From Synergistaceae bacterium (GTDB lineage: Bacteria; Synergistota; Synergistia; Synergistales; Acetomicrobiaceae), in contig JAAYTM010000108.1 of NCBI GenBank assembly GCA_012518015.1, forward strand, positions 1-47,990: a stretch of DNA of 47,990 nucleotides, written 5' to 3'. The notes under the pieces are model-generated. The model made no database searches, was not told the origin of the DNA, and saw only the letters and a list, made by a program, of their open reading frames with translations. Numbering within the stretch: position 1 is the stretch's first letter; each line of letters opens with the position of its first letter. The position numbers and the translations under genes are program-made. Positions 1,172 through 15,266 of this stretch are shown here, in pieces.

Positions 1172-2722
1172 TCACTTCGCATTCGCACCCTTCAGGGATT
1201 TAGCGATATCGGCAAGCACTTCAAGAATTGTGTTCTTTACTTCTTCCTTGGTAAGGGTTTCTACTTTTTCTTCAACTGCTGGCGATGGAGCCTCTATCAT
1301 GAATGACACTCCATCAGAAAGATTAGTTAAACGAGCCAAAAATAAGCTTCCTTTTCCGATGATCATGGCTCGTTTCATCTTGCCATTTTTTATATTTTCG
1401 CAAGCATAACCTATAAACGGCACACCTGAAGGGATGTGGCCTTGGGTCGGTGCAAAGCCGGGCATTCCGCGAGTTTTTATAAAATCAGTCATACCCGCTT
1501 TATCAAGTTCCCTTTTCATAACGGCCAAAGCAGCGATCATTTTAAAGTTCGCCTCAGGAACATTACCTGCTCCTGCCGGCAATGTAATTTCTGGATTTTG
1601 TAATTCTGCAGCGTATTTGTCCACATCCAGAAATCCTAAACCTATGCGTTTCAGTGGCTTGTAAACCAACGCTTCCGTTATGGCTTGTGGAGATGCTCCC
1701 GCTCCTATGGAATGTTTTCCTACGGCGTCAAGCCTCATTACTGGGGACTCTCCATCTTCAGGGGCAAGTAACACGGCAAAATTGCCTAACATGTCCTCCA
1801 ATGCTGGCATGCCTTTTTTGACATGATCTCTCGCGTTCATATAAAGCTTAGGAAGGGCCCCACCCGCCAATACTACTACGTTTTCCCTCACGCCCGAGGC
1901 TACTTGTGCTGCTGCGTCCACCAAGGCATAAACCGGACCTGCACAAAAGCCCCGTATATCACATCCGCTAGCGTTGCTGCAACCAGCAATCTCGCCTATG
2001 GATTTAGCAAAATTCCCCCCACCTCTTTGATTCATGTCGCCGGCTGCTTCTTCTGAACATTCAATGATGAAATCCACTTCCTCTGGCTTCATGTTCGCTC
2101 GTTTCAATAAATGCAGCAAGGCTAAAACACCGCCCGCTTTGCAGGCAATATTCTCGAGCAATACATAAGATGATAAGCACTCGTCAAACTCATGGGCCTT
2201 TCTGCAACATCCAACAATTTCGCCCCCCGAATAAAGGGGCACGGCTCCATCTTCCCTTATTTCCTTTTCAATTTCCTCGAAAATATGCCCCTTCTCCAAA
2301 CGCTGCAAAATGCTTGAATTCATCAACGGATGCGCCTGAAGCTTATCTTCAACTTTTTTAGAAAAAGACTGCTCCAACCAAATGATATCAAAGACATCGC
2401 AGATATCCATCAAACCGAGAAACTCATCCTCAGGCATTATCTCTCCAAATGTACCGTAACGCGAAACGTCCTTTAACGGGTTTTGATACCAGGGCGTTTG
2501 ATGTGCCTCTAATTCTTCAAGGGATATTCCTCCAATAAAAGCTTGATTTGGTGCGTAACCGATGGCTTCATCGTAGGTTCGTATGGACTTTGACAGAGAA
2601 AGCAGAAACTCTGATTCTCCCTTAATCTTTCTCTCCCAAAAAGGCGTATTGCCATAGTGATAAGCTAATTCAGGCGTGTGATTGAGGCAATAAGCATACT
2701 CTTTTATCGCAACTTTTCGCAT
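1172..2722 (-). CDS. grdC: Glycine reductase component C, subunit GrdC
   Basis: GrdC is the FabH/thiolase-like subunit of glycine reductase protein C, which together with GrdD releases the acetyl group from protein A as acetyl phosphate. The N-terminus KEYAYCLNHTPELAYHYG and the central GCDIRGFCAGPVYAL segment are typical of the family. The ORF track begins at a TTG (2761), but I prefer the ATG at 2722 (protein begins MRKVAIKEYAY). A GAGGAG lies 13 bases upstream of it, and it gives 516 residues, close to the usual family length of just over 500. A perfect hairpin lies between grdB and this gene, so its expression may differ from that of grdEAB. The spacing of the ribosome binding site is slightly long, which leaves the exact start a little uncertain. 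Confidence 0.93.
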   Translation of the reverse strand: MRKVAIKEYAYCLNHTPELAYHYGNTPFWERKIKGESEFLLSLSKSIRTYDEAIGYAPNQAFIGGISLEELEAHQTPWYQNPLKDVSRYGTFGEIMPEDEFLGLMDICDVFDIIWLEQSFSKKVEDKLQAHPLMNSSILQRLEKGHIFEEIEKEIREDGAVPLYSGGEIVGCCRKAHEFDECLSSYVLLENIACKAGGVLALLHLLKRANMKPEEVDFIIECSEEAAGDMNQRGGGNFAKSIGEIAGCSNASGCDIRGFCAGPVYALVDAAAQVASGVRENVVVLAGGALPKLYMNARDHVKKGMPALEDMLGNFAVLLAPEDGESPVMRLDAVGKHSIGAGASPQAITEALVYKPLKRIGLGFLDVDKYAAELQNPEITLPAGAGNVPEANFKMIAALAVMKRELDKAGMTDFIKTRGMPGFAPTQGHIPSGVPFIGYACENIKNGKMKRAMIIGKGSLFLARLTNLSDGVSFMIEAPSPAVEEKVETLTKEEVKNTILEVLADIAKSLKGANAK

Positions 2723-2775
2723 GTGATCATGCACGCTCCTCTTGTCAAAATGACTGTTCAATCTTACAAAAGTTC

Positions 2776-2828: not shown

Positions 2829-4136
2829 TCAATTTCCGAAAATAGTTTGTTCCTCAATATCAGCCTGCAAAGCTTCTAGGGCCTTGAGCAACAAACGACG
2901 CCTTATTGCCTTCTCTTCCTCAAGGGGCTTGGTGGGATCGCCCAAGGGATGCGGTATAGCCACAGAGGGTACTATCCTGTTTGCTCCCACTGTTTGCGAA
3001 ATGGGGACGATAGTACATACGTGGACGGTGGGTAGGCCAACTCGTTCAAGTTCCTTCACGATCGTTGCACCGCAACGAGTACAAGTCCCTCAAGTAGAGG
3101 TAAGTATCACTCCGTCAACGTCAGCTTCTTTCAACTTTTTGGCGATTTCCTCGCCAAATTTCTTGGCGTAAGCGACTGGCGTGCCGTTACCGACAGTTGC
3201 ATAGTATTTATCGTGGAGTGAGCCAAAGGCGCCTTCTTTTTCAAGTTCCCTGGCTACATCTAATGGCAGCACTCTGTCTGGATCGTCGTTAGCATAAGTC
3301 GGATCATAACCGCCATGAACTGTCTCATGAGTTTCGGGCGTAAGGTTTTCGAGACCTGCTATGCTGTATTCACCATATTTAGTGGCACTTGAAGCTTCGA
3401 TCCTATCAGGGTTTCCCTTTGGAACTATACCCCCAGATGTAACGAGGGCAATCTTAGCCTCCCTTATGTTCTGTATTGCTGGTGCCGGAGGAACGCGATC
3501 GAAGGAAGGCATAGGATACTCAGTTGCAAAATCCTCGCCTTTCAATTTTTTTATGAGCATGTCAACTGCTCGCTCCGCACCTATTCGGTCACGAAAGATG
3601 TTGACACGAATGCCCCGCTCTATGTAGCCTTCTTCTTCGGGACGCCCTAAGGGTTCGCCATTTAACTGTTTCAGTATCAAACGCGCCATTTTAGGTATGG
3701 CATCGCGCATGCCCCTAGCGCTATCAGAGGTTTCTACGATGTATAAATCTTTTCTGTAAATTTCTACGGCTGGATTTTCTGGATACATGGCAGTAACAAC
3801 TGGTATGCACAACTTTTTGCTCACTGCATCGCATAGGGCACCACATGCCATCCCATAACGCCCGGCGTTGAAAGCAGGCCCTGCAACTAAGGCATCTGGG
3901 CGATAGCTTTCCAATAGCCCGATGATCTTATCGACAGCCTCCTCCGCATGTTCCGCGAAATAATCATCTCCACAGACTAAGGTAGCAACCACAACAGCCT
4001 CTTCTCCTAATGCTGCCTGCAAAGCCTGGCCAGGGCCCACAACGCCCTCGCGAAGTTCCGGAGGATAATCTGCCCTTTCCTCGCCACCTATACCGGCAAA
4101 AAACTGGTTTATATAATGGACCACTCTATAAGTCAC
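2829..4136 (-). CDS. grdB: Glycine reductase component B selenoprotein GrdB (in-frame UGA at 3092-3090)
   Basis: GrdB is the substrate-binding selenoprotein of protein B, which with the GrdE-derived subunits presents glycine to the selenol of GrdA. The ORF track splits it into pieces of 348 and 76 residues. The two are in the same frame and separated only by TGA at 3092-3090, giving one 435-residue protein with selenocysteine at residue 349. The local motif is TSTUGTCTRCGA, that is U-x-x-C-x-x-C, as in known GrdB, where Sec is at about residue 350. Translation starts at GTG 4136 behind GGGGGGA. A small hairpin just after the UGA is a candidate SECIS. The gene follows grdA by 25 bases. Glycine specificity, as opposed to sarcosine (GrdF) or betaine (GrdH), is inferred from the riboswitch and gene order. 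Confidence 0.95.
3062..3078 (-). promoter_or_regulatory. Candidate SECIS hairpin of grdB
   Basis: On the minus strand, TCGTTGC-GGT-GCAACGA forms a perfect 7-bp stem with a 3-base loop beginning 11 bases after the UGA codon. This is the position where bacterial SelB-binding elements lie. The loop is smaller than in the E. coli fdhF element, so the assignment rests on position and perfect pairing, not on a conserved loop sequence. Confidence 0.55.
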
Positions 4137-4161: not shown

Positions 4162-4647
4162 CTACTCTAAAGTGTACTTGCTATATTGCTCGCGCATATT
4201 TGCAACTGCTTGAGACAGGGCCTCGGGATCCAAGACCATTTCCATCATTTCCATCTGTTCTTCCCAAACTGCCGGATCTACTTCTTCCCTAATTTCTGGC
4301 TCAAAAATGTGGTAAACTGCGAGTCCCAACGGGACTCCCGCCAAAGGACCTGCGTAAGTCGGATCACCGTTTGTCACGGTCTCTGCGTAAATTTCGGCGC
4401 CTTCAGGATCGGAGCTTCCAAGTATAACTATTACATTCTCAGCTCCATATTTCTCAACAACATCCTTCACGCGTTGTTGGTTCTGCAGGTCCATGGCTCC
4501 CGCGGCCGTTCAGACGAAACATTCGGTCACGGAAAACACTGTTTCTGCGCCACTATCCTTCAAGCAGGCCTCCATGACAGGGCCAGGAATGCCATCTCTT
4601 TCGCCAAGGAGAATCAACTTTTTACCGGCCAATTTACCCTTTGCCAT
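4162..4647 (-). CDS. grdA: Glycine reductase component A selenoprotein GrdA (in-frame UGA at 4512-4510)
   Basis: GrdA is the small selenoprotein that attacks the substrate bound to protein B, forms a Se-carboxymethyl intermediate and passes it to protein C. The track shows only the part after the stop (110 residues from 4494). Reading through TGA at 4512-4510 gives 161 residues from ATG 4647, beginning [19 protein letters not shown]. Selenocysteine is residue 46 in [13 protein letters not shown], which matches the family motif CxxU (known GrdA has Sec44). The residues around the UGA form only a short possible stem, so no convincing SECIS is claimed. The ribosome binding site is GGGAGGTG. The gene lies 25 bases after grdE and 25 bases before grdB. 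Confidence 0.96.
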
Positions 4648-4672: not shown

Positions 4673-5962
4673 TTATCTGGTCTCGGCCGAGAAACAGGTG
4701 AAACCAAGCTCGTTGGTAGCTCCAGTTATCGCCTGCAATTCGACCTCGATGGAACCGTCATCCTTTAAGCTTCCGGAAAATCCTCCAGCTATAATGTCAA
4801 CATATTCACTGAAACCAATCACCCTTTCCATGGGCGGTAACTTTACAATAGGGTTAGCATTTCCGACGCTTACTACAGCGTTGGCTTCCGGCGACGCATC
4901 GGCAAGAGATTGACTCGCTCCATCTCTACCCGCATATTCGTCTGTGATCAGAACTGTTTTTATACCAGCGAGTTCTGCCTTTTTACAGTTCATGATGAGG
5001 TCTGTATCGGGATTGCCGAATCCTTCTTCAGTAATGATTACACCGTCGACACCCAACATCCTGGCAAGCTTTACTGTGTAAGAGGAATTTCTCTTTTTAT
5101 CCTCTAACGTGACATTTTCGTTTGTTATTATGCAGCCAATAAAGTTTATTTCCTCGCCATGACGCTTGTATAATGCCTCTATTACCGGGTTATTTTGGTG
5201 AACATAGGTACTATTTTTGTCGCAAGCCGATACGCAGTTTCCCGATACTATCGCACCGTCGAAAACTTCATTAGGGTGAATTAAAGTAGGCAGTATCTTT
5301 TTTGCATCTACTCCATACACGTAGGTATCATGAAGCAACCCCTGCGATTGCAACATATAGATGTAGGCCACTTTAGGGAGTTTTTCAAGTTCCTTGGACC
5401 TTTTTGTTATCTCCTCAAGCTCGTATAGGGACACTTCATCTGGAGACACATCTTTAGCCTTTGTGGCCAAGAAATGAGCGACCTTTAGTCCAGCTACGCG
5501 ACAAGCAGCTTCGTAGTCATGCCTTTCAATATCTGCCCTTGGAGTAAAGACCAAGACCACATTATTTGTCTTGGAAAAAGGGGTATAATCCGCCCCTGGC
5601 CCAGACATATCTATTATGCCTTCTTGGAAACCCATTATTTTGCCACAGGTCACAACCGCTGCTCCAGTGAGAGCTAAGGTCTTTCCCTCTCCTACGGTTC
5701 CTTCAACGTCTCCAATGAAGCCAGGAAAAACATCTCCTTCGCCCTCAATTTTACATCTTGGCTCTATCACGTCTTTAACCGGCACGATGCGGACCTTTTC
5801 TCCCGGACGAGCCAAATCAACCTCGACGCATTCAAAGCGATCGTCCTTAGAAAGTAAGGAACTTATTTCTTCTTGGTTAATATAAAGTACTTTGTCTTCA
5901 ACTTTGGTGGTATTTCCCCATTTAATATCGTTTATTTTGACTTTGTGCAATTCAAGCCTCAC
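4673..5962 (-). CDS. grdE: Glycine reductase component B proprotein GrdE (alpha and beta subunits)
   Basis: GrdE is made as a proprotein cleaved between Asn and Cys; the new N-terminal Cys becomes a pyruvoyl group that binds the amino group of glycine. The cleavage site is visible as VSGN/CVSACDKNSTYVHQNN. The track start at 5983 is an ATG lying directly in front of the AGGAGG ribosome binding site. I place the start at GTG 5962, nine bases after AGGAGG, giving 429 residues (MRLELHKVKIND...). This puts the cleaved cysteine at residue 243, against Cys242 in E. acidaminophilum, which supports the choice. It is the first catalytic subunit of the operon, after trxA and before grdA. Confidence 0.96.
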   Translation of the reverse strand: MRLELHKVKINDIKWGNTTKVEDKVLYINQEEISSLLSKDDRFECVEVDLARPGEKVRIVPVKDVIEPRCKIEGEGDVFPGFIGDVEGTVGEGKTLALTGAAVVTCGKIMGFQEGIIDMSGPGADYTPFSKTNNVVLVFTPRADIERHDYEAACRVAGLKVAHFLATKAKDVSPDEVSLYELEEITKRSKELEKLPKVAYIYMLQSQGLLHDTYVYGVDAKKILPTLIHPNEVFDGAIVSGNCVSACDKNSTYVHQNNPVIEALYKRHGEEINFIGCIITNENVTLEDKKRNSSYTVKLARMLGVDGVIITEEGFGNPDTDLIMNCKKAELAGIKTVLITDEYAGRDGASQSLADASPEANAVVSVGNANPIVKLPPMERVIGFSEYVDIIAGGFSGSLKDDGSIEVELQAITGATNELGFTCFSAETR

Positions 5963-5998
5963 TAACACACACCTCCTTTTCATTTTTAAAATTACTAA

Positions 5999-6319
5999 CT
6001 ACTGCAATATCTTTTCCACTCGCTCTTTTATCGCCTCTATTGTTACTTCATTTCCCGTAATTCTATCCTTCAATTCCCCTCCTTGATAAAATAGGAACGT
6101 TGGGACCCCCATGACCTTTAGACTAATTGCCAAACGGCGGTTCTCGGCCACATTAAGTTTGCAAAACTTAACTTTACCTTCATACTGAGAGGCAAGCTCC
6201 TCCACCTGAGGCATCAACGCAAGGCACGGACCGCATTTTGGTCCCCAGAGATCTACAACTACCGGTAATTCACTTTGCAGAACTTCCGATTCAAAATTGT
6301 CCTTATTTACCTCTATCAA
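5999..6319 (-). CDS. trxA: Thioredoxin of the glycine reductase operon
   Basis: A 106-residue thioredoxin that supplies reducing equivalents to the selenoproteins of glycine reductase. The fold begins VDLWGPKCGPCLALMPQVEEL, with the redox pair in CGPC and the cis-proline motif GVPTFLF. The tryptophan usually found just before the first cysteine (WCGPC) is lysine here (KCGPC). The start is TTG 6319 behind AGGAGGTG, and the first 17 bases overlap the end of grdX, suggesting translational coupling. No thioredoxin reductase is in the window; it may lie beyond grdD or elsewhere. Confidence 0.95.
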   Translation of the reverse strand: MIEVNKDNFESEVLQSELPVVVDLWGPKCGPCLALMPQVEELASQYEGKVKFCKLNVAENRRLAISLKVMGVPTFLFYQGGELKDRITGNEVTIEAIKERVEKILQ

Positions 6320-6719
6320 TTAAACACACCTCCTGTTTTGATACGATCCCATACCGACAAAGTACGGGCATGATCAACTGTTCGTCAAGGTATTGCATAT
6401 CTTCCAGAACTTTCTGATCAAGCTTGATGCTTGAAAGACTTTGATCTTTACAAAATTCTAAGGTACTTTCAATTACATTAAGGGATTCTATATCAGTGAA
6501 ATGACCTTCACAAGGGGATTGAGCAAGGATAATTGTCATAAAAATCCTCATCGAAGGAGCTATATTCCCAGATAAAGGATGAGATAAAATTTTGTATCCC
6601 ACGTGCACCTTATCACGAGCAGCTACCAGCACATCTAAAATAGATCCTTCTACGTAGATGCACCTGGGAAGGGTTCTTATTCGCGGATTATTGGATATAA
6701 GATAATACGAGGAGGACAT
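6303..6719 (-). CDS. grdX: GrdX, accessory protein of glycine reductase operons
   Basis: A 138-residue protein matching the GrdX family, found at the head of glycine, sarcosine or betaine reductase operons; its biochemical role is unknown. Typical features are the N-terminal LISNNPRI, the central YVEGSILDVLVAARDKVHVG and KILSHPLSGNIAPS. There is no signal peptide or membrane segment, so it should be cytoplasmic. The ATG at 6719 follows GGGAGG by 8 bases. This ribosome binding site is next to a stem that can form with the end of the glycine riboswitch, so grdX is the gene directly read by the switch. Its end overlaps trxA. Confidence 0.9.
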   Translation of the reverse strand: MSSSYYLISNNPRIRTLPRCIYVEGSILDVLVAARDKVHVGYKILSHPLSGNIAPSMRIFMTIILAQSPCEGHFTDIESLNVIESTLEFCKDQSLSSIKLDQKVLEDMQYLDEQLIMPVLCRYGIVSKQEVCLIDRGK

Positions 6720-6721
6720 TA

Positions 6722-6753
6722 GCCAAACCTCCCTTCCATTCGGATAATTTGGC
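6722..6753 (-). promoter_or_regulatory. Putative expression platform of the glycine riboswitch (RBS-flanking stem)
   Basis: GCCAAA (6753-6748) can pair with TTTGGC (6727-6722). The pairing encloses the grdX ribosome binding site GGGAGG (6733-6728) and ends just before the ATG. The first bases of this stem are also the 3' bases of the closing helix of aptamer 2 (GGGGCC, ending at 6751), so the two pairings compete. Glycine binding would favour the aptamer helix and expose the site. No T-tract terminator is seen, so control of translation is the simplest reading. Confidence 0.6.
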
Positions 6754-6929
6754 CCCTGTCCTCTTTACCCTCAGGGATTCGCCACTTTTTATCGGGCTTG
6801 CCCCTTTGGCAGACCTTCAAAGGTCTTTTCCAGGGCCCCGTCACATCGCAATCCTTTTGCCTGAGAGATTAGGACTTTTCCCTTACACCTTCGGCTTCTC
6901 GCCCAGAAGGCAAGACATCTCTTGCGATG
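6751..6929 (-). promoter_or_regulatory. Tandem glycine riboswitch (two aptamers)
   Basis: Two successive glycine aptamers lie upstream of grdX. Aptamer 1 (about 6929-6844) is closed by CATCGCAA with TTGCGATG. It contains the conserved segments GCCGAAGG and TCTCTCAGGCAAAAGGA. Aptamer 2 (about 6838-6751) is closed by GGCCCTG with CAGGGGCC (one bulge). It contains GCCAAAGGGGCAAGCCCG and CCCTGAGGGTAAAGAGGACA. Each core matches the known gcvT-type motif. It is unusual only in controlling glycine reductase instead of the glycine cleavage system; both are glycine-consuming, so switching on with glycine is expected. Confidence 0.95.
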
Positions 6930-6960
6930 CTCATCCGGAATGTGCATTCTTCCATCTAAC

Positions 6961-6989
6961 ATTTTATATATATGATTTCAAAGGGTCAA
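6961..6989 (-). promoter_or_regulatory. Sigma70-type promoter of the grd operon
   Basis: TTGACC (6989-6984) and TAAAAT (6966-6961) are separated by exactly 17 bases. This would start transcription about 25-30 bases before the first riboswitch helix. No terminator is seen after hypE, so read-through from hypCDE is also possible. Confidence 0.75.
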
Positions 6990-7021
6990 GCATGCTTTTA
7001 TCCACAAAGCCACTTCAGGCA

Positions 7022-8002
7022 CTAACATATCCTCGGCACCATTTCTCCAACGAGCATATCGATCACCCTCATGCCTCCTATTTTTGTCTTAAGCCCCACG
7101 ATCCCGACATGATCTTCTGTAACCTTACCTATGACAGAACAATGGGGGGCGACCTTTTTCAAAGACGAAAGAACTTCTCTTAAATAATCCGGATCTACGG
7201 CAAGAACCGCCGTACCCTCGCATGCTAAATGCAGCACATCGAAACCTAAAACATCAGCTACGGATACTACCTCTGAATTTACTGGTATGAGTTCCTCCTC
7301 GATCTCGATGCCGATGTTGGATCCTTCAGCCCATTCACACAAGACAGTCCCTAAACCGCCTCGCGTACAATCCCTTGCGCACTTAACGCCTGGTATGCTA
7401 GTTAAGGGTTCCATAAGTGGCCACAAAGGCTTGCAATCGCTTATCAATTCATCCACCTCAAGGCCGTAGTGAAGGGCCGATATTAAAGCACCGTGTTGTC
7501 CTATAGGACCAGTAACGATTAAATAGTCGCCCGGGTATAGATTTTTAATTCCCCAGTGGTTGTCAGTAAGGACTTCTCCTAAGGCACAACAAGTTATATA
7601 CATGCCATCCGCCTGGCCCCTGGGCAAAACTTTTGTATCACCAGCAACGAGTTTAACATCCAGATCCCTGCTTACGCGATAGGCGCTCTCGATGACTTTT
7701 AGCAATTCTTCCTTCAGTAATCCTTCTTCTATGAGAATGCCCATAGCCAAATAAAGTGGCTTAACTCCTCTTACTGCTAGATCGTTAGTGCTGCCACATA
7801 TTGCAAGCTTGCCAATGTCTCCCCCAGGGAAAAATCTCGGACTTACGGTAAAACCATCAATTGTGACGCCAATGCCATTTTCAATCAAGGCGCAATCTTC
7901 CATATCCTTATTGCTCTGATTGCCGTATATATTTAATATTTCTTTGATAAGTTGTTGAGTTGGCCTGCCACCACTACCATGTCCTAATTCTATAAACATC
8001 AT
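7022..8002 (-). CDS. hypE: Hydrogenase maturation protein HypE (carbamoyl dehydratase)
   Basis: HypE converts a carbamoyl group on its C-terminal cysteine into thiocyanate, the source of the cyanide ligands of [NiFe]-hydrogenases. The 326-residue protein has the PurM/ThiL-like fold: N-terminal ELGHGSGGRPTQQLI, the ATP-binding region VTIDGFTVSPRFFPGGDIG and the CTRGGLG motif. It ends in the characteristic PRIC, whose final cysteine is the carbamoyl acceptor. It overlaps hypD by 4 bases (ATGA). The HypF carbamoyltransferase it needs is not in the window. Confidence 0.96.
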   Translation of the reverse strand: MMFIELGHGSGGRPTQQLIKEILNIYGNQSNKDMEDCALIENGIGVTIDGFTVSPRFFPGGDIGKLAICGSTNDLAVRGVKPLYLAMGILIEEGLLKEELLKVIESAYRVSRDLDVKLVAGDTKVLPRGQADGMYITCCALGEVLTDNHWGIKNLYPGDYLIVTGPIGQHGALISALHYGLEVDELISDCKPLWPLMEPLTSIPGVKCARDCTRGGLGTVLCEWAEGSNIGIEIEEELIPVNSEVVSVADVLGFDVLHLACEGTAVLAVDPDYLREVLSSLKKVAPHCSVIGKVTEDHVGIVGLKTKIGGMRVIDMLVGEMVPRIC

Positions 8003-9087
8003 CGCATCACCTTGTAAGAATACTTATAACAAGCAGCGCAGTTGCCTTCGCTAGATACCATACATGGACCTACCGGATCATCGGGAGTGCAACGAATCGA
8101 AAACAAGGGACACTCCTCCGGCCTTAATTTGCCCATCAATACTTCACCGCATTTGCATCCAGAGGGCAAGGGAACTTCTTTGATGTCTAAATCAAACCTC
8201 GTAATGGCATCGAAGCAGGCAAATTCGGGCTTTAACCGTAACCCAGAATTTTTAATCTTCCCAAGTCCTCGCCATCTGGCATCCGCTTCATCGAAGACTC
8301 GTCTTATAAACTTTTTGGCTCGGGTGTTTCCCTCTGGCCTTACTGCCCTAGCATAAAGCAGACTAACCTTGGGGTCCTTATCGTGAACTTGTCTAGCTAG
8401 TTCCACCAAACCTTCCATGATATCTAGGGGTTCAAATCCCGCAATCGTGCAGGATATGTTAAAATCTCTGGGCAAAAATTCATAGGGCTTTACGCCTATG
8501 ACAACGGTTACATGCCCCGGAAGCAAAAAGCCATCCACTTTAAGTTCCCTTGACTCAGCAAGGAGTCGCAATGCCGGCGGAACAAGTTTATGAAAACAAA
8601 GAACGGAAAAGTTTCGGACCTTTTTCTCTTCTGCCTCTAAAATGATAGCAGCCGTAGAGGGAGCTGTCGTCTCGAATCCAACACCTAAAAAGACAACTTC
8701 CTTCGTTGGATTTTTCAAAGCTAGGTCCAATGCCTCATCGCAGGATCTCACCACTCGAACATCAGCTCCTTGAGTCCTAAGATTTCGCAAAGAGCCTTTA
8801 GTACCGGGAACGCGCATCATATCCCCGTAAGTAGCAAAAATCAAACCTTTTTTTTCGGCAAGCTTTATCGCCGCGTCCACTTCTCCTTGGTCTGTAACGC
8901 AGACGGGACAGCCAGGCCCGGAGACAAGTGAAATGTTTTTTGGAAGCAATGACCTTAATCCGCTCCTGTAGATGGCAACCGTGTGTGTGCCGCAAACTTC
9001 CATGAAGGTCATGGGCTCTTTGGCAAAAAATCCTAAAGCACGTTGAAGTAATTCAGCTTTGTCCCTAAGATTGCCTTTTTCCTGCAA
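7999..9087 (-). CDS. hypD: Hydrogenase maturation protein HypD
   Basis: HypD is the iron-sulfur scaffold that with HypC assembles the Fe(CN)2CO group of [NiFe]-hydrogenases. In 362 residues it shows MEVCGTHT near residue 25, SGPGCPVCVT near residue 60, GVGFETTAP near residue 140, and C-terminal 4Fe-4S cysteines in SIRCTPDDPVGPC and GNCAACY. The start is TTG 9087, the earliest start after an in-frame stop; a later ATG would remove part of the N-terminal domain. The first 23 bases overlap the end of hypC, implying coupled translation. Confidence 0.96.
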   Translation of the reverse strand: MQEKGNLRDKAELLQRALGFFAKEPMTFMEVCGTHTVAIYRSGLRSLLPKNISLVSGPGCPVCVTDQGEVDAAIKLAEKKGLIFATYGDMMRVPGTKGSLRNLRTQGADVRVVRSCDEALDLALKNPTKEVVFLGVGFETTAPSTAAIILEAEEKKVRNFSVLCFHKLVPPALRLLAESRELKVDGFLLPGHVTVVIGVKPYEFLPRDFNISCTIAGFEPLDIMEGLVELARQVHDKDPKVSLLYARAVRPEGNTRAKKFIRRVFDEADARWRGLGKIKNSGLRLKPEFACFDAITRFDLDIKEVPLPSGCKCGEVLMGKLRPEECPLFSIRCTPDDPVGPCMVSSEGNCAACYKYSYKVMR

Positions 9088-9301
9088 TATTCAACACTTC
9101 TTTCCACAATTCTTCCAATTCTTGGCCCTCTTTTTCTTCGCACTTTTCTATAATAAAACCAGCGTGCACCAAAACCACATCGCCCACATTTACACTATCG
9201 ATCAAGTCCGTCCTTGCCTCCACTTTCAAGGATCCCGCCCGTGCAATTACCCTGCGCGAATCCAAAATTTTTTCTATTCTATGTGGAACAGCCAGACACA
9301 T
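9065..9301 (-). CDS. hypC: Hydrogenase maturation chaperone HypC
   Basis: HypC carries the Fe(CN)2CO group from HypD to the large-subunit precursor of [NiFe]-hydrogenase. The track start at 9409 is upstream of the real one. The family begins Met-Cys, and MCLAVPHRIEKI starts at ATG 9301 behind AAGGAGG, giving 78 residues. The essential Cys2 is present, and the rest has the OB-like beta pattern (VGDVVLVHAGF). A rho-independent terminator lies 35 bases upstream, leaving little room for a separate promoter. Confidence 0.95.
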   Translation of the reverse strand: MCLAVPHRIEKILDSRRVIARAGSLKVEARTDLIDSVNVGDVVLVHAGFIIEKCEEKEGQELEELWKEVLNIAGKRQS

Positions 9302-9335
9302 ATTTCTACCTCCTTCACCTTCCATTAAAACGAGT

Positions 9336-9370
9336 AAAAAAGCGGGACCTATTGAATTTTGGCCCCGCTT
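9336..9370 (-). terminator. Rho-independent terminator after ymdB, directly upstream of hypC
   Basis: The stem AAGCGGGGCC with GGTCCCGCTT (10 bp, one G-U pair) has an 11-base loop and is followed by a run of Ts on the minus strand. It should end the rny-ymdB transcript. Because it is so close to hypC it may instead act as an attenuator for the hyp genes. Confidence 0.85.
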
Positions 9371-9444
9371 CGTCTTTTGTGCCGAACGTTCATTCAAGCA
9401 ATTCAACAAGCTTTCGACGTTATCGCCCGGGGCAACTTAAACCC

Positions 9445-12155: not shown

Positions 12156-12266
12156 TTAATCCTCCCACTCACCGCCCCCCTTGCCCATTCGACTGAAACA
12201 AAAGGCTAGTCCCGCTATGATAATTACGGCCATGAATATGGTTGTTCCAATTGCAGCGTTCGTCAT
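12156..12266 (-). CDS. metS: MetS-like small subunit of an NSS amino-acid transporter (36 aa)
   Basis: Too short for the ORF track. The ATG at 12266 overlaps the stop of the upstream NSS transporter (ATGA), and the ORF encodes a 36-residue protein: a short polar N-terminus, one hydrophobic segment (IGTTIFMAVIIIAGLAFCFS), then a basic-glycine stretch and the acidic end GEWED. Length, single membrane span and position match the MetS small subunits that accompany MetP-type sodium symporters, where the small protein is required for transport. A terminator follows. The family assignment rests on these features, without an alignment. Confidence 0.85.
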   Translation of the reverse strand: MTNAAIGTTIFMAVIIIAGLAFCFSRMGKGGGEWED

Positions 12267-13786
12267 CTAACCTCCCCTCCTTCTTGCTCGCTTACTTCCG
12301 TCTTTGATTTCATGCCTTGCAATATGAAGCTAGCGATCAGGACTGCCACCATGATGATCCAAATGAAGTTAGACCAACTTCCGTACCCTCCATAGGGTTC
12401 CTTAAGGTCCTGCATAAAACCGCCGTAAACTACGACGAAAAGAAGTCCTACCGGCACCACGATCTTGATAAGAAAATCCATCCAAGGACCTACCTTGATA
12501 TCTGAAGTGGCATTCACGTGCTCGCGAAGCTTATCGGCACCAAAGACCCAACCTACAACCAACGAGGCAATGGCACCGCCTATGAGCAATGTATAGAAGG
12601 CAACCGTCCTGTCAACGATGTCAAGCCAATACATTCCCCCCTGAGTACAATAAAGAAGTCCGATCAAAAATCCGACTAGGCATCCCCAAAAAGTAACTTT
12701 TTTCCGCTCCCATCCGAACTTGTCCATCAAGGGAACAATGTATCCCGCGTAAGCCAAATAATACGCTGAACTGAGTCCTATCATCCAAAACATGAGGAAG
12801 AATAAAACGCCTGTCAATCGACTCAAAGCAGGCATCAACGATATACCGACAGGGTAAGTTACAAAAGCCACTCCAATACCAGCGATGGCCACCTCTTGCA
12901 AGGACACTCCCAGAGCTTGCATTATATAACCGACTGTGCTAAAGACAGCAAAACCCGCCAAGAATGCAAAGCTGGTGTCGCAAAACACTGTAATAACGGT
13001 GTTGTTCGTTATATCGCCCTTTCTAGCGATAAAACGTCCGTAGGCATACATTCCCGCCATCCCAACAGAAAGCGAAAATGCTATCTGGCTAAAGGCAGCA
13101 AACCAGACGCCTCCTCCCTTTAAGACGGACCAATCGACATCGAGGTAATAATTAAGCCCCTCCACGGCTCCGGGCAGTGTTAAGCTTCTTACTAATATCG
13201 CCACGATCAAAACCCACGCTAACGCCATGACTACTTCTGAGACCTTCCCAATTAATTCAGCACCTCGATGTATCACGAAATAAATGACGATCCAAGTGAA
13301 GGTTAACGCTCCAACTATGGGCCACCTTAACCCACCAAGCACCCCAGGATTGTCTGAAAGGCCAAGCACTGTGCTAAAAAAGTAATCTCCTGCCTGATGG
13401 GCACCCACTTCTCCCACACCCCAAGCTAAAGTCATGGAACTAAACATGTAAATTAGGGTCCAAGCCATGATCACACAATAATAAGTATCGATTAAAAAGG
13501 CCGATATGCTTGGAAACCATCCTACCCATTCCCATTTTTTGCCTATGCTGCTAAAGACTCCAGGGGCTCCTTTTTGAAAATAATGCCCCATTCCAAACTC
13601 AGTGAGAAGCCACGGAATCCCAATGGCAAAAATGCCTATGATGTAAGCCACCAAAAAGGCAGCTCCCCCATACTGGTAACACATATAAGGAAACCGCCAG
13701 ACGTTGCCCAAACCGATGGCTGACCCTATAGCTGCAAAAATCATATGACGCCGCTTTAAAAACATTTCCCTTCCAGCTTCCGCCAT
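12263..13786 (-). CDS. Sodium-dependent amino-acid transporter, NSS (SNF) family, MetP-like
   Basis: A 507-residue integral membrane symporter of the neurotransmitter:sodium symporter family. The signature of helix 1, AAIGSAIGLGNVWRFPYMCY, contains the unwound segment that binds sodium and substrate, and GGAAFLVAY follows in helix 2. About twelve hydrophobic segments can be counted and the C-terminus is short and charged. The overlapping MetS-like gene suggests a MetP-type methionine/alanine/branched-chain importer, but the substrate cannot be read from sequence. A second, different NSS gene lies 91 bases upstream. Confidence 0.92.
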   Translation of the reverse strand: MAEAGREMFLKRRHMIFAAIGSAIGLGNVWRFPYMCYQYGGAAFLVAYIIGIFAIGIPWLLTEFGMGHYFQKGAPGVFSSIGKKWEWVGWFPSISAFLIDTYYCVIMAWTLIYMFSSMTLAWGVGEVGAHQAGDYFFSTVLGLSDNPGVLGGLRWPIVGALTFTWIVIYFVIHRGAELIGKVSEVVMALAWVLIVAILVRSLTLPGAVEGLNYYLDVDWSVLKGGGVWFAAFSQIAFSLSVGMAGMYAYGRFIARKGDITNNTVITVFCDTSFAFLAGFAVFSTVGYIMQALGVSLQEVAIAGIGVAFVTYPVGISLMPALSRLTGVLFFLMFWMIGLSSAYYLAYAGYIVPLMDKFGWERKKVTFWGCLVGFLIGLLYCTQGGMYWLDIVDRTVAFYTLLIGGAIASLVVGWVFGADKLREHVNATSDIKVGPWMDFLIKIVVPVGLLFVVVYGGFMQDLKEPYGGYGSWSNFIWIIMVAVLIASFILQGMKSKTEVSEQEGGEVR

Positions 13787-13877
13787 GCTCCTCTCCTCCT
13801 TTTTTAAGTTTTACTCATACTAAGCAAATAAACAAATCTAGCCATCCCTATTTCTTTTTTCACCTCCTCTGCGTTGA

Positions 13878-15236
13878 TTAACCAAAGAACTGGATGTAAC
13901 CCATGATCAATATAACGGCGATGATTACCGGCAAGACGTAAGTCATATAACCTCTCAAGCCCTCTGGGAATTTCGGTCCTATGCCCGTATTGGCCTCTTT
14001 AATAAAGTTTTCCCATCCCCAGCCATATTTGGAGGTGCAAAAGAGGACAAAAACGAGAGAGCCTATGGGAAGCAAATTAAAACTTACTATGAAATCTTCC
14101 AGATCAAGGACTACGGTTCCCTCTCCAAAAGGTTGAAACCCGCTCCAGGGGCCAAATCCCAAAACGCAGGGCAATGAAGCGATGAATAAGACCAGGATGC
14201 CCACATAACAGGCCTTTTTGCGACTCCACTTCCACTCGTCCATGGCAAAGGCTATGAGATGCTCAAATACAGCAATTACAGTCGTTAAAGCTGCCAAAGA
14301 TATAAATACGAAAAATAAAGTACCCCATAATCTACCGCCAGTCATAGCATTGAAGACGTTTGGAAGAGTGACGAATATCAAACCAGGACCCGCTCCAGCA
14401 TCGACGCCAAAAGCAAAACAAGCGGGGAAAATTACCATTCCTGACATCAATGCTATCAGTGTATCAAGGATTATAATATAGACAGACTCACCCAGAAGGG
14501 CCCTTTCTTTGCTCAGGTAACTCCCAAATATTAACATGCTGCCGATTCCTAAGCTCAAGGTGAAAAAGGCCTGGCTTTGGGCAGCAAAAACTGCTTCCCA
14601 AGTTAGCTTAGAAAAGTCTGGCTTAAGGTAAAAAGCTATGCCCTTTTCAGCTCCAGGCAGTGTCACGGAACGAACTATGAGCACAACGAGCAGCATAAAA
14701 AGGCCAGACATCAAAATCTTAGTTATTCGTTCAACGCCTGCCTGCAAACCTCTCGAACAAACCAGGAAGCCAAGCAATACCGCCAAAGCCATCCACATGG
14801 TCAGTTCAGGAGTATTGGATATGAAAGAACCAAAAAAGGCACCCACTTCTTCAGGAGAAAGCATTGAAAGATGTCCTACTGCAACGTGATAAGTATAAGC
14901 CAGGCCCCAACCTGTAACAGTGGTATAGAACATCATCAATACCATGTTTCCGAGCACACCGAGATAACCGTAAATATGCCACTTGGTACCAGGCGGCTCC
15001 AAGACAAGCATCGCGCCGGCTAAATTTCTACGGCTGGCTCGCCCCATGGCAAATTCGCATACCATGATGGGAAGACCCATGATAGCCAAAAAAATTAAAT
15101 AAACTATTACAAAAGCTGCTCCACCATATCGGCCTGTGATATAGGGAAATCGCCACACATTTCCCAAACCTATAGCACATCCTGCAGACACCAATATAAA
15201 GCCTAATCTGGAAGCTAACTGTTCTCTCTCAGCCAC
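13878..15236 (-). CDS. Sodium-dependent amino-acid transporter, NSS (SNF) family
   Basis: A second NSS symporter, 452 residues, with the helix-1 signature VSAGCAIGLGNVWRFPYITG and GGAAFVIVY in helix 2. The track begins at ATG 15263. I prefer GTG 15236, because AGGGGGTG lies six bases before it while the ATG has no ribosome binding site. The family's N-terminus (EREQLASRLGFIL) then starts almost at once. It is shorter than its neighbour, probably with eleven membrane segments, and has no small-subunit gene of its own. A good promoter lies just upstream, so this gene, the next NSS gene and the MetS-like gene likely form one unit. Substrate unknown; an amino acid is expected. Confidence 0.92.
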   Translation of the reverse strand: MAEREQLASRLGFILVSAGCAIGLGNVWRFPYITGRYGGAAFVIVYLIFLAIMGLPIMVCEFAMGRASRRNLAGAMLVLEPPGTKWHIYGYLGVLGNMVLMMFYTTVTGWGLAYTYHVAVGHLSMLSPEEVGAFFGSFISNTPELTMWMALAVLLGFLVCSRGLQAGVERITKILMSGLFMLLVVLIVRSVTLPGAEKGIAFYLKPDFSKLTWEAVFAAQSQAFFTLSLGIGSMLIFGSYLSKERALLGESVYIIILDTLIALMSGMVIFPACFAFGVDAGAGPGLIFVTLPNVFNAMTGGRLWGTLFFVFISLAALTTVIAVFEHLIAFAMDEWKWSRKKACYVGILVLFIASLPCVLGFGPWSGFQPFGEGTVVLDLEDFIVSFNLLPIGSLVFVLFCTSKYGWGWENFIKEANTGIGPKFPEGLRGYMTYVLPVIIAVILIMGYIQFFG

Positions 15237-15266
15237 TGCAATCACCCCCTCTTTATTGTGCATATC

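Follow-up and report, generated by a model that had tools for sequence, protein, structure and literature searches.

For Stickland fermenters, glycine reductase is a main route to energy, and its control by glycine is known in Clostridia. How is glycine read out when a second phylum carries a glycine riboswitch in front of the same operon? The stretch of DNA analyzed here (hereafter, the window; 47,990 nucleotides of contig JAAYTM010000108.1) comes from a genome that groups with Acetomicrobium (Synergistota), its closest named relative being Acetomicrobium sp. UBA5826 (GrdE 87% identical). It contains a tandem glycine riboswitch on the minus strand (6938-6746), directly 5' of grdX and the glycine reductase operon. 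Based on the sequence and on computed folds, we consider it quite likely that this riboswitch responds to glycine by turning on translation of grdX, probably along with that of the coupled genes.

The genes 3' of the riboswitch are arranged in the order grdX, trxA, grdE, grdA, grdB, and grdC, with the following features:

6728-6733, minus strand: Shine-Dalgarno sequence GGGAGG of grdX
6303-6719, minus strand: grdX (NF038093, 87.4 bits, cut-off 40)
5999-6319, minus strand: trxA, thioredoxin (NF047697, 136.5 bits, cut-off 140; PF00085)
4673-5983, minus strand: grdE-type component B subunit (PF09338, E 4e-213)
4162-4494, minus strand: grdA, selenoprotein A, part 3' of the probable selenocysteine codon (NF040748 profile positions 47-151)
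3090-4136, minus strand: grdB, selenoprotein B, part 5' of the probable selenocysteine codon (TIGR01918 and PF07355)
3052-3089, minus strand: SECIS_4 element at the grdB UGA (RF01990, 52.9 bits)
1172-2761, minus strand: grdC (NF040746, 759 bits)

Read from the raw sequence only, grdD probably follows grdC at about position 1150 and lower. The same strand carries hypE immediately upstream of the riboswitch (7022-9409), together with hypD-like and hypC-like frames; hypE was checked by a family search, and the hypD and hypC assignments follow the look of the frames. Further upstream (12263-15263, minus strand), two adjacent sodium-dependent transporters (SNF family) have no glycine riboswitch match of their own.

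The leader of grdX combines a promoter and two aptamers with strands that can form alternative helices:

6961-6989, minus strand: sigma-70-type promoter TTGACC-17-TAAAAT (10 of 12 consensus positions matched; common to all five Acetomicrobium congeners)
6936-6938, minus strand: leader CCG, putative partner of linker CGG (6840-6838), aligned to the outer stem of RF03166
6839-6934, minus strand: glycine aptamer 1, canonical core (RF00504, 61.9 bits)
6746-6843, minus strand: glycine aptamer 2 (domain 2), full length in the window (RF00504, 39.9 bits)
6831-6835, minus strand: P1 5' strand of aptamer 2, CCCTG
6754-6758, minus strand: P1 3' strand of aptamer 2, CAGGG
6757-6763, minus strand: GAGGACA, 5' arm of the outer OFF helix, comprising aptamer-2 core and the start of the P1 3' strand (pairing probability 0.99, 37 C)
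6748-6753, minus strand: GCCAAA, 5' arm of the inner OFF helix (no differences among the six Acetomicrobium leaders)
6722-6727, minus strand: TTTGGC, 3' arm of the inner OFF helix (likewise invariant in the six Acetomicrobium leaders)
6712-6718, minus strand: TGTCCTC, 3' arm of the outer OFF helix, formed by the final two start-codon bases together with codons 2-3

An earlier note on this DNA had claimed the promoter and two glycine-aptamer cores, and both were recovered. The two RF00504 matches exceed the gathering score of 32 (E 1.5e-10 for aptamer 1; the score of aptamer 2 is from the whole-genome search), abut with a short linker (6934-6839 and 6843-6746), and are followed directly by genes of glycine metabolism; they are the only matches to this family in the 1.75-Mb assembly. 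Aptamer 2 scores far below aptamer 1 and may perhaps also bind glycine. Assignment to the type-1 singlets with a ghost aptamer was rejected for the window, given that its aptamer 2 remains recognizable to RF00504. The full length of the tandem model RF03166 (glycine-GGAnGA) could be aligned, outer leader-linker stem included (6938-6752, minus strand; 75.7 bits, E 4.3e-16); this is below its gathering score of 110 and membership was therefore rejected (relatives score 61-87 bits). The leader CCG and the linker CGG would presumably form the leader-linker kink-turn stem. The folding z-score of the whole leader is -3.4. No terminator-like site was found on the minus strand in 6600-7150, and the leader was therefore not placed in the transcription-attenuating class.

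The alternative helices meet at the start of grdX. The inner helix GCCAAA/TTTGGC (6753-6748 and 6727-6722) brackets the Shine-Dalgarno sequence (6733-6728), as the earlier note had described, and extends into an outer helix GAGGACA/TGTCCTC (6763-6757 and 6718-6712), resulting in a single longer hairpin. The outer helix ties the aptamer-2 core and the P1 3' strand to the grdX start, and thereby excludes P1 of aptamer 2 (6835-6831 with 6758-6754). As in translation-controlling riboswitches, pairing within the aptamer and pairing with the start region are mutually exclusive, since positions 6758-6754 overlap the OFF hairpin. The proposed competition with the closing helix of aptamer 2 is thus real, but GCCAAA lies mostly beyond P1 and the direct conflict comes from GAGGACA/TGTCCTC. 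Similarly, a translation switch is present, but GCCAAA/TTTGGC makes up only its inner half, and the main switching helix runs between the aptamer-2 core and the first three codons.

The 57-nt platform hairpin has a folding energy of -28.0 kcal/mol (shuffle mean -14.5, sd 2.8), and none of 1000 dinucleotide shuffles was as stable. In the unliganded fold of the window leader, the outer and inner OFF helices form with probabilities of 0.99 and 1.0 at 37 C, and of 0.91 and 0.97 at 60 C. When P1 of aptamer 2 was imposed, start-codon pairing dropped from 0.66 to 0.23, at a cost of about 7 kcal/mol when computed without ligand or tertiary contacts. In this P1-forced state, a 6-bp hairpin between GGGAGG and CCTCC of codons 3-4 is possible, and the ON state is therefore not cleanly open. 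Taken alone, the outer helix of the window is unexceptional, because among 39 genera of other families, 6 have codons that equal or exceed its own in pairing with the aptamer strand. Within Acetomicrobium, the six leaders (three of them distinct in this region) vary too little to support a covariation analysis of the OFF helices; the inner helix is invariant in the genus and therefore has no covariation support.

These results are consistent with the following mechanism. Without glycine, the aptamer-2 core and 3' strand (AGAGGACAGGGGCCAAA) would pair with the start region of grdX (TTTGGCTAATGTCCTC), so that the start codon is buried and the Shine-Dalgarno sequence enclosed. Glycine on aptamer 1, perhaps also on aptamer 2, would stabilize P1 of aptamer 2, and the start region would be freed because P1 takes the strand that is used by the OFF helix. 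Translation of grdX would rise, probably together with that of the coupled downstream genes. Sequence and computation established the promoter and the aptamers, together with the alternative helices and the maintenance of these across the phylum (see below), and we infer glycine binding, the ON direction, the coupling to grdE, grdA, grdB, and the other genes, and the size of control. Burial of the start region in the unliganded state is familiar from other translational ON riboswitches (e.g., the add adenine riboswitch, in which aptamer P1 and a start-region helix are likewise exclusive, but which has a different aptamer class and ligand). Activation by glycine at the level of grdX translation, as proposed earlier, appears to be supported by the two RF00504 matches, the lack of a terminator, the ligand-free pairing of the start, and the compensating changes described below.

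To place the window among its relatives, we searched 188 Synergistota genomes, of which 119 contain RF00504 and 126 contain GrdX. The comparison set comprised 100 leaders (40 genera) in which the two are adjacent, with start codons assigned by our own scoring of Shine-Dalgarno sequences and motifs (five by hand). Across these relatives, the P1 strands of domain 2 are separated by 24-93 nt, and in many of them the domain resembles the ghost aptamer of type-1 singlets (PMC6944388). The closing strand of domain 2 pairs with the initial codons of grdX in most families (domain-2 strand/grdX codons):

Group f4: TTCCGGAC/GTCCGGAA
Group f5: TGCGACAG/CTGTCGCA
Group f6: GCCATACGACAG/CTGTCGTATGGT
Group f7: TATACGAC/GTCGTGTA
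Group f8: AACGAGGACGAA/TTTGTCCTCGTT and GATGGGGACGAA/TTCGTCCCTATT
Group f10: TTTCTGGA/TCCAGGAG

The N-terminal residues of GrdX vary widely between groups (MSFF, MSCR, LDCR, MGLSS, VFQE) with the pairing kept, and the constraint on the grdX start therefore appears to lie on the RNA. No convincing helix was found in genera g3, g5, g9, g13, g16, g17, g20, g21, and g56; the large group of leaders from genus g16 (L097-L111, f5) retains the aptamer, along with a domain 2 that is very short, and has no helix with the grdX codons. When P1 of domain 2 was forced in ensemble folding, the start codon opened in 9 and closed in 9 of 35 genera, and the wider initiation region became modestly more open on average (pairing 0.74 to 0.69). 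Folding thus supports the switch for the window, with no consistent opening of the start codon predicted across genera.

Complementarity of this kind could be a by-product of conserved P1 and core motifs on one side and of the GrdX N-terminus on the other, without a regulatory role. Indeed, domain 2 has a conserved GACAG, codons resembling CTGTC occur repeatedly (MSCR, MDCR), and about 20 of the 100 loci are expected to reach the threshold even when given the codons of another family (maximum 30 in 300 draws); the observed number was 59. Using one leader per genus (40 genera), we summed the best helix between the P1 3' window and codons 1-9, and obtained a score of 729, compared with 547 +/- 19 for swapped partners (0 of 20,000 permutations reached 729) and 561 +/- 21 after synonymous recoding of the codons (about 8 s.d. 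below the observed score, which exceeded all recodings). With one genus per family, 0.17% of permutations reached the observed score. Related genomes are not independent, and these figures describe the strength of the signal rather than an exact probability. In codons 10-18, which served as a control, a strong helix was present in 6 of the 100 leaders. The paired fraction exceeded all 500 column shuffles in the fixed-register groups f5-f7 and f8, and paired cells in the f4/f10 group were not above the maximum of the shuffles. Widening the pairing windows to include the Shine-Dalgarno sequence increased the noise and reduced the per-genus significance. With the N-termini differing as widely as they do, we regard the by-product explanation as very unlikely; the sequence comparison supports an OFF pairing that has been maintained by compensating changes across Synergistota.

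A regulatory helix could still be secondary to an output that is mainly transcriptional, through termination that might include Rho-dependent termination when grdX is untranslated. This alternative draws on the Bacillota, in which all 17 grd leaders examined (C. difficile is not among these loci) have a terminator-like U-run hairpin after domain 2, often beginning with the P1 3' strand itself, and translation switches could in principle be coupled to Rho-dependent termination. It is unlikely for Synergistota, given that the window leader lacks an intrinsic terminator on the minus strand, that a U-run hairpin better than -10 kcal/mol was present in just 4 of 101 Synergistota leaders, and that pairing with coding sequence is maintained. 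The direction of control could also be reversed, with glycine turning grdX off, if the Shine-Dalgarno sequence pairs with CCTCC of codons 3-4 in P1-forced states. Such a 6-bp hairpin was seen in the window, and OFF switches are known among the glycine riboswitches that precede transporters (PMC11477304); but CCTCC is not kept (congeners have CCTTT), the start codon is more hidden in the ligand-free fold, repressing glycine degradation at high glycine makes little sense, and grd of C. difficile is induced by glycine (PMC11477304). We give this reversed reading hardly any credence and favor glycine-activated translation of grdX.

The association of sensor and target is not new. Compared with the glycine cleavage system and transporters, which the earlier note had named as usual targets, control of grd is not unusual, since a glycine riboswitch is annotated upstream of the glycine-induced grd operon of C. 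difficile (PMC11477304, PMC10880999), which shares with the window the ligand class, an operon starting with grdX, and a predicted ON response. Unlike the Bacillota grd leaders, the window has no U-run hairpin, and its aptamer-2 strand pairs with the grdX start instead; the same aptamer and gene thus appear, from their leaders, to use a transcriptional version of the ON logic in Bacillota. No U-run terminator was found after domain 2 in two Desulfovibrionaceae grd leaders. One of them (L186, contig CAJTFO010000004.1, near 3807-4010) shows a Synergistota-like pairing with the gene start (CGCGCGAC/GTCGCGCG), perhaps acquired by transfer or convergence. Type-1 singlets (PMC6944388; Ruff 2016 and Torgerson 2018, cited in PMC9481103) consist of a glycine aptamer and a 3' ghost aptamer, and are reported to control gcv in 93% of cases. 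Many Synergistota leaders are alike in having a binding aptamer followed by a second domain with P1 kept, whereas aptamer 2 of the window is full length and its target is grdX, not gcv.

A separate observation concerns GrdX itself. In 12 leaders from three Synergistota families (L068-L071, L148-L150, L151-L153, L156, and L157), the GrdX frame contains one in-frame TGA near residue 15-22, always after leucine, with the reading frame well conserved beyond. These are candidates for a selenocysteine-containing GrdX; no Rfam match to a SECIS element was found near the in-frame UGA of these genes. GrdX of the window has no in-frame TGA.

Our literature search, which covered few subscription journals, found no description of the start-codon platform and no paper naming Acetomicrobium together with a glycine riboswitch; for glycine riboswitches and translation in Synergistota, it returned only general riboswitch papers or unrelated uses of the words. 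On balance, we think it likely that most Synergistota grd riboswitches share a single expression platform built on pairing between the closing strand of domain 2 and the first grdX codons, so that the RNA switch shapes the N-terminal codons and the output is translational, compared with the transcriptional output in Bacillota. This suggests that a second phylum has kept both the sensor and its target but reads out glycine at translation, through the first codons of the gene itself, and it provides a simple, testable case of expression-platform exchange and of a coding sequence constrained by an RNA switch.
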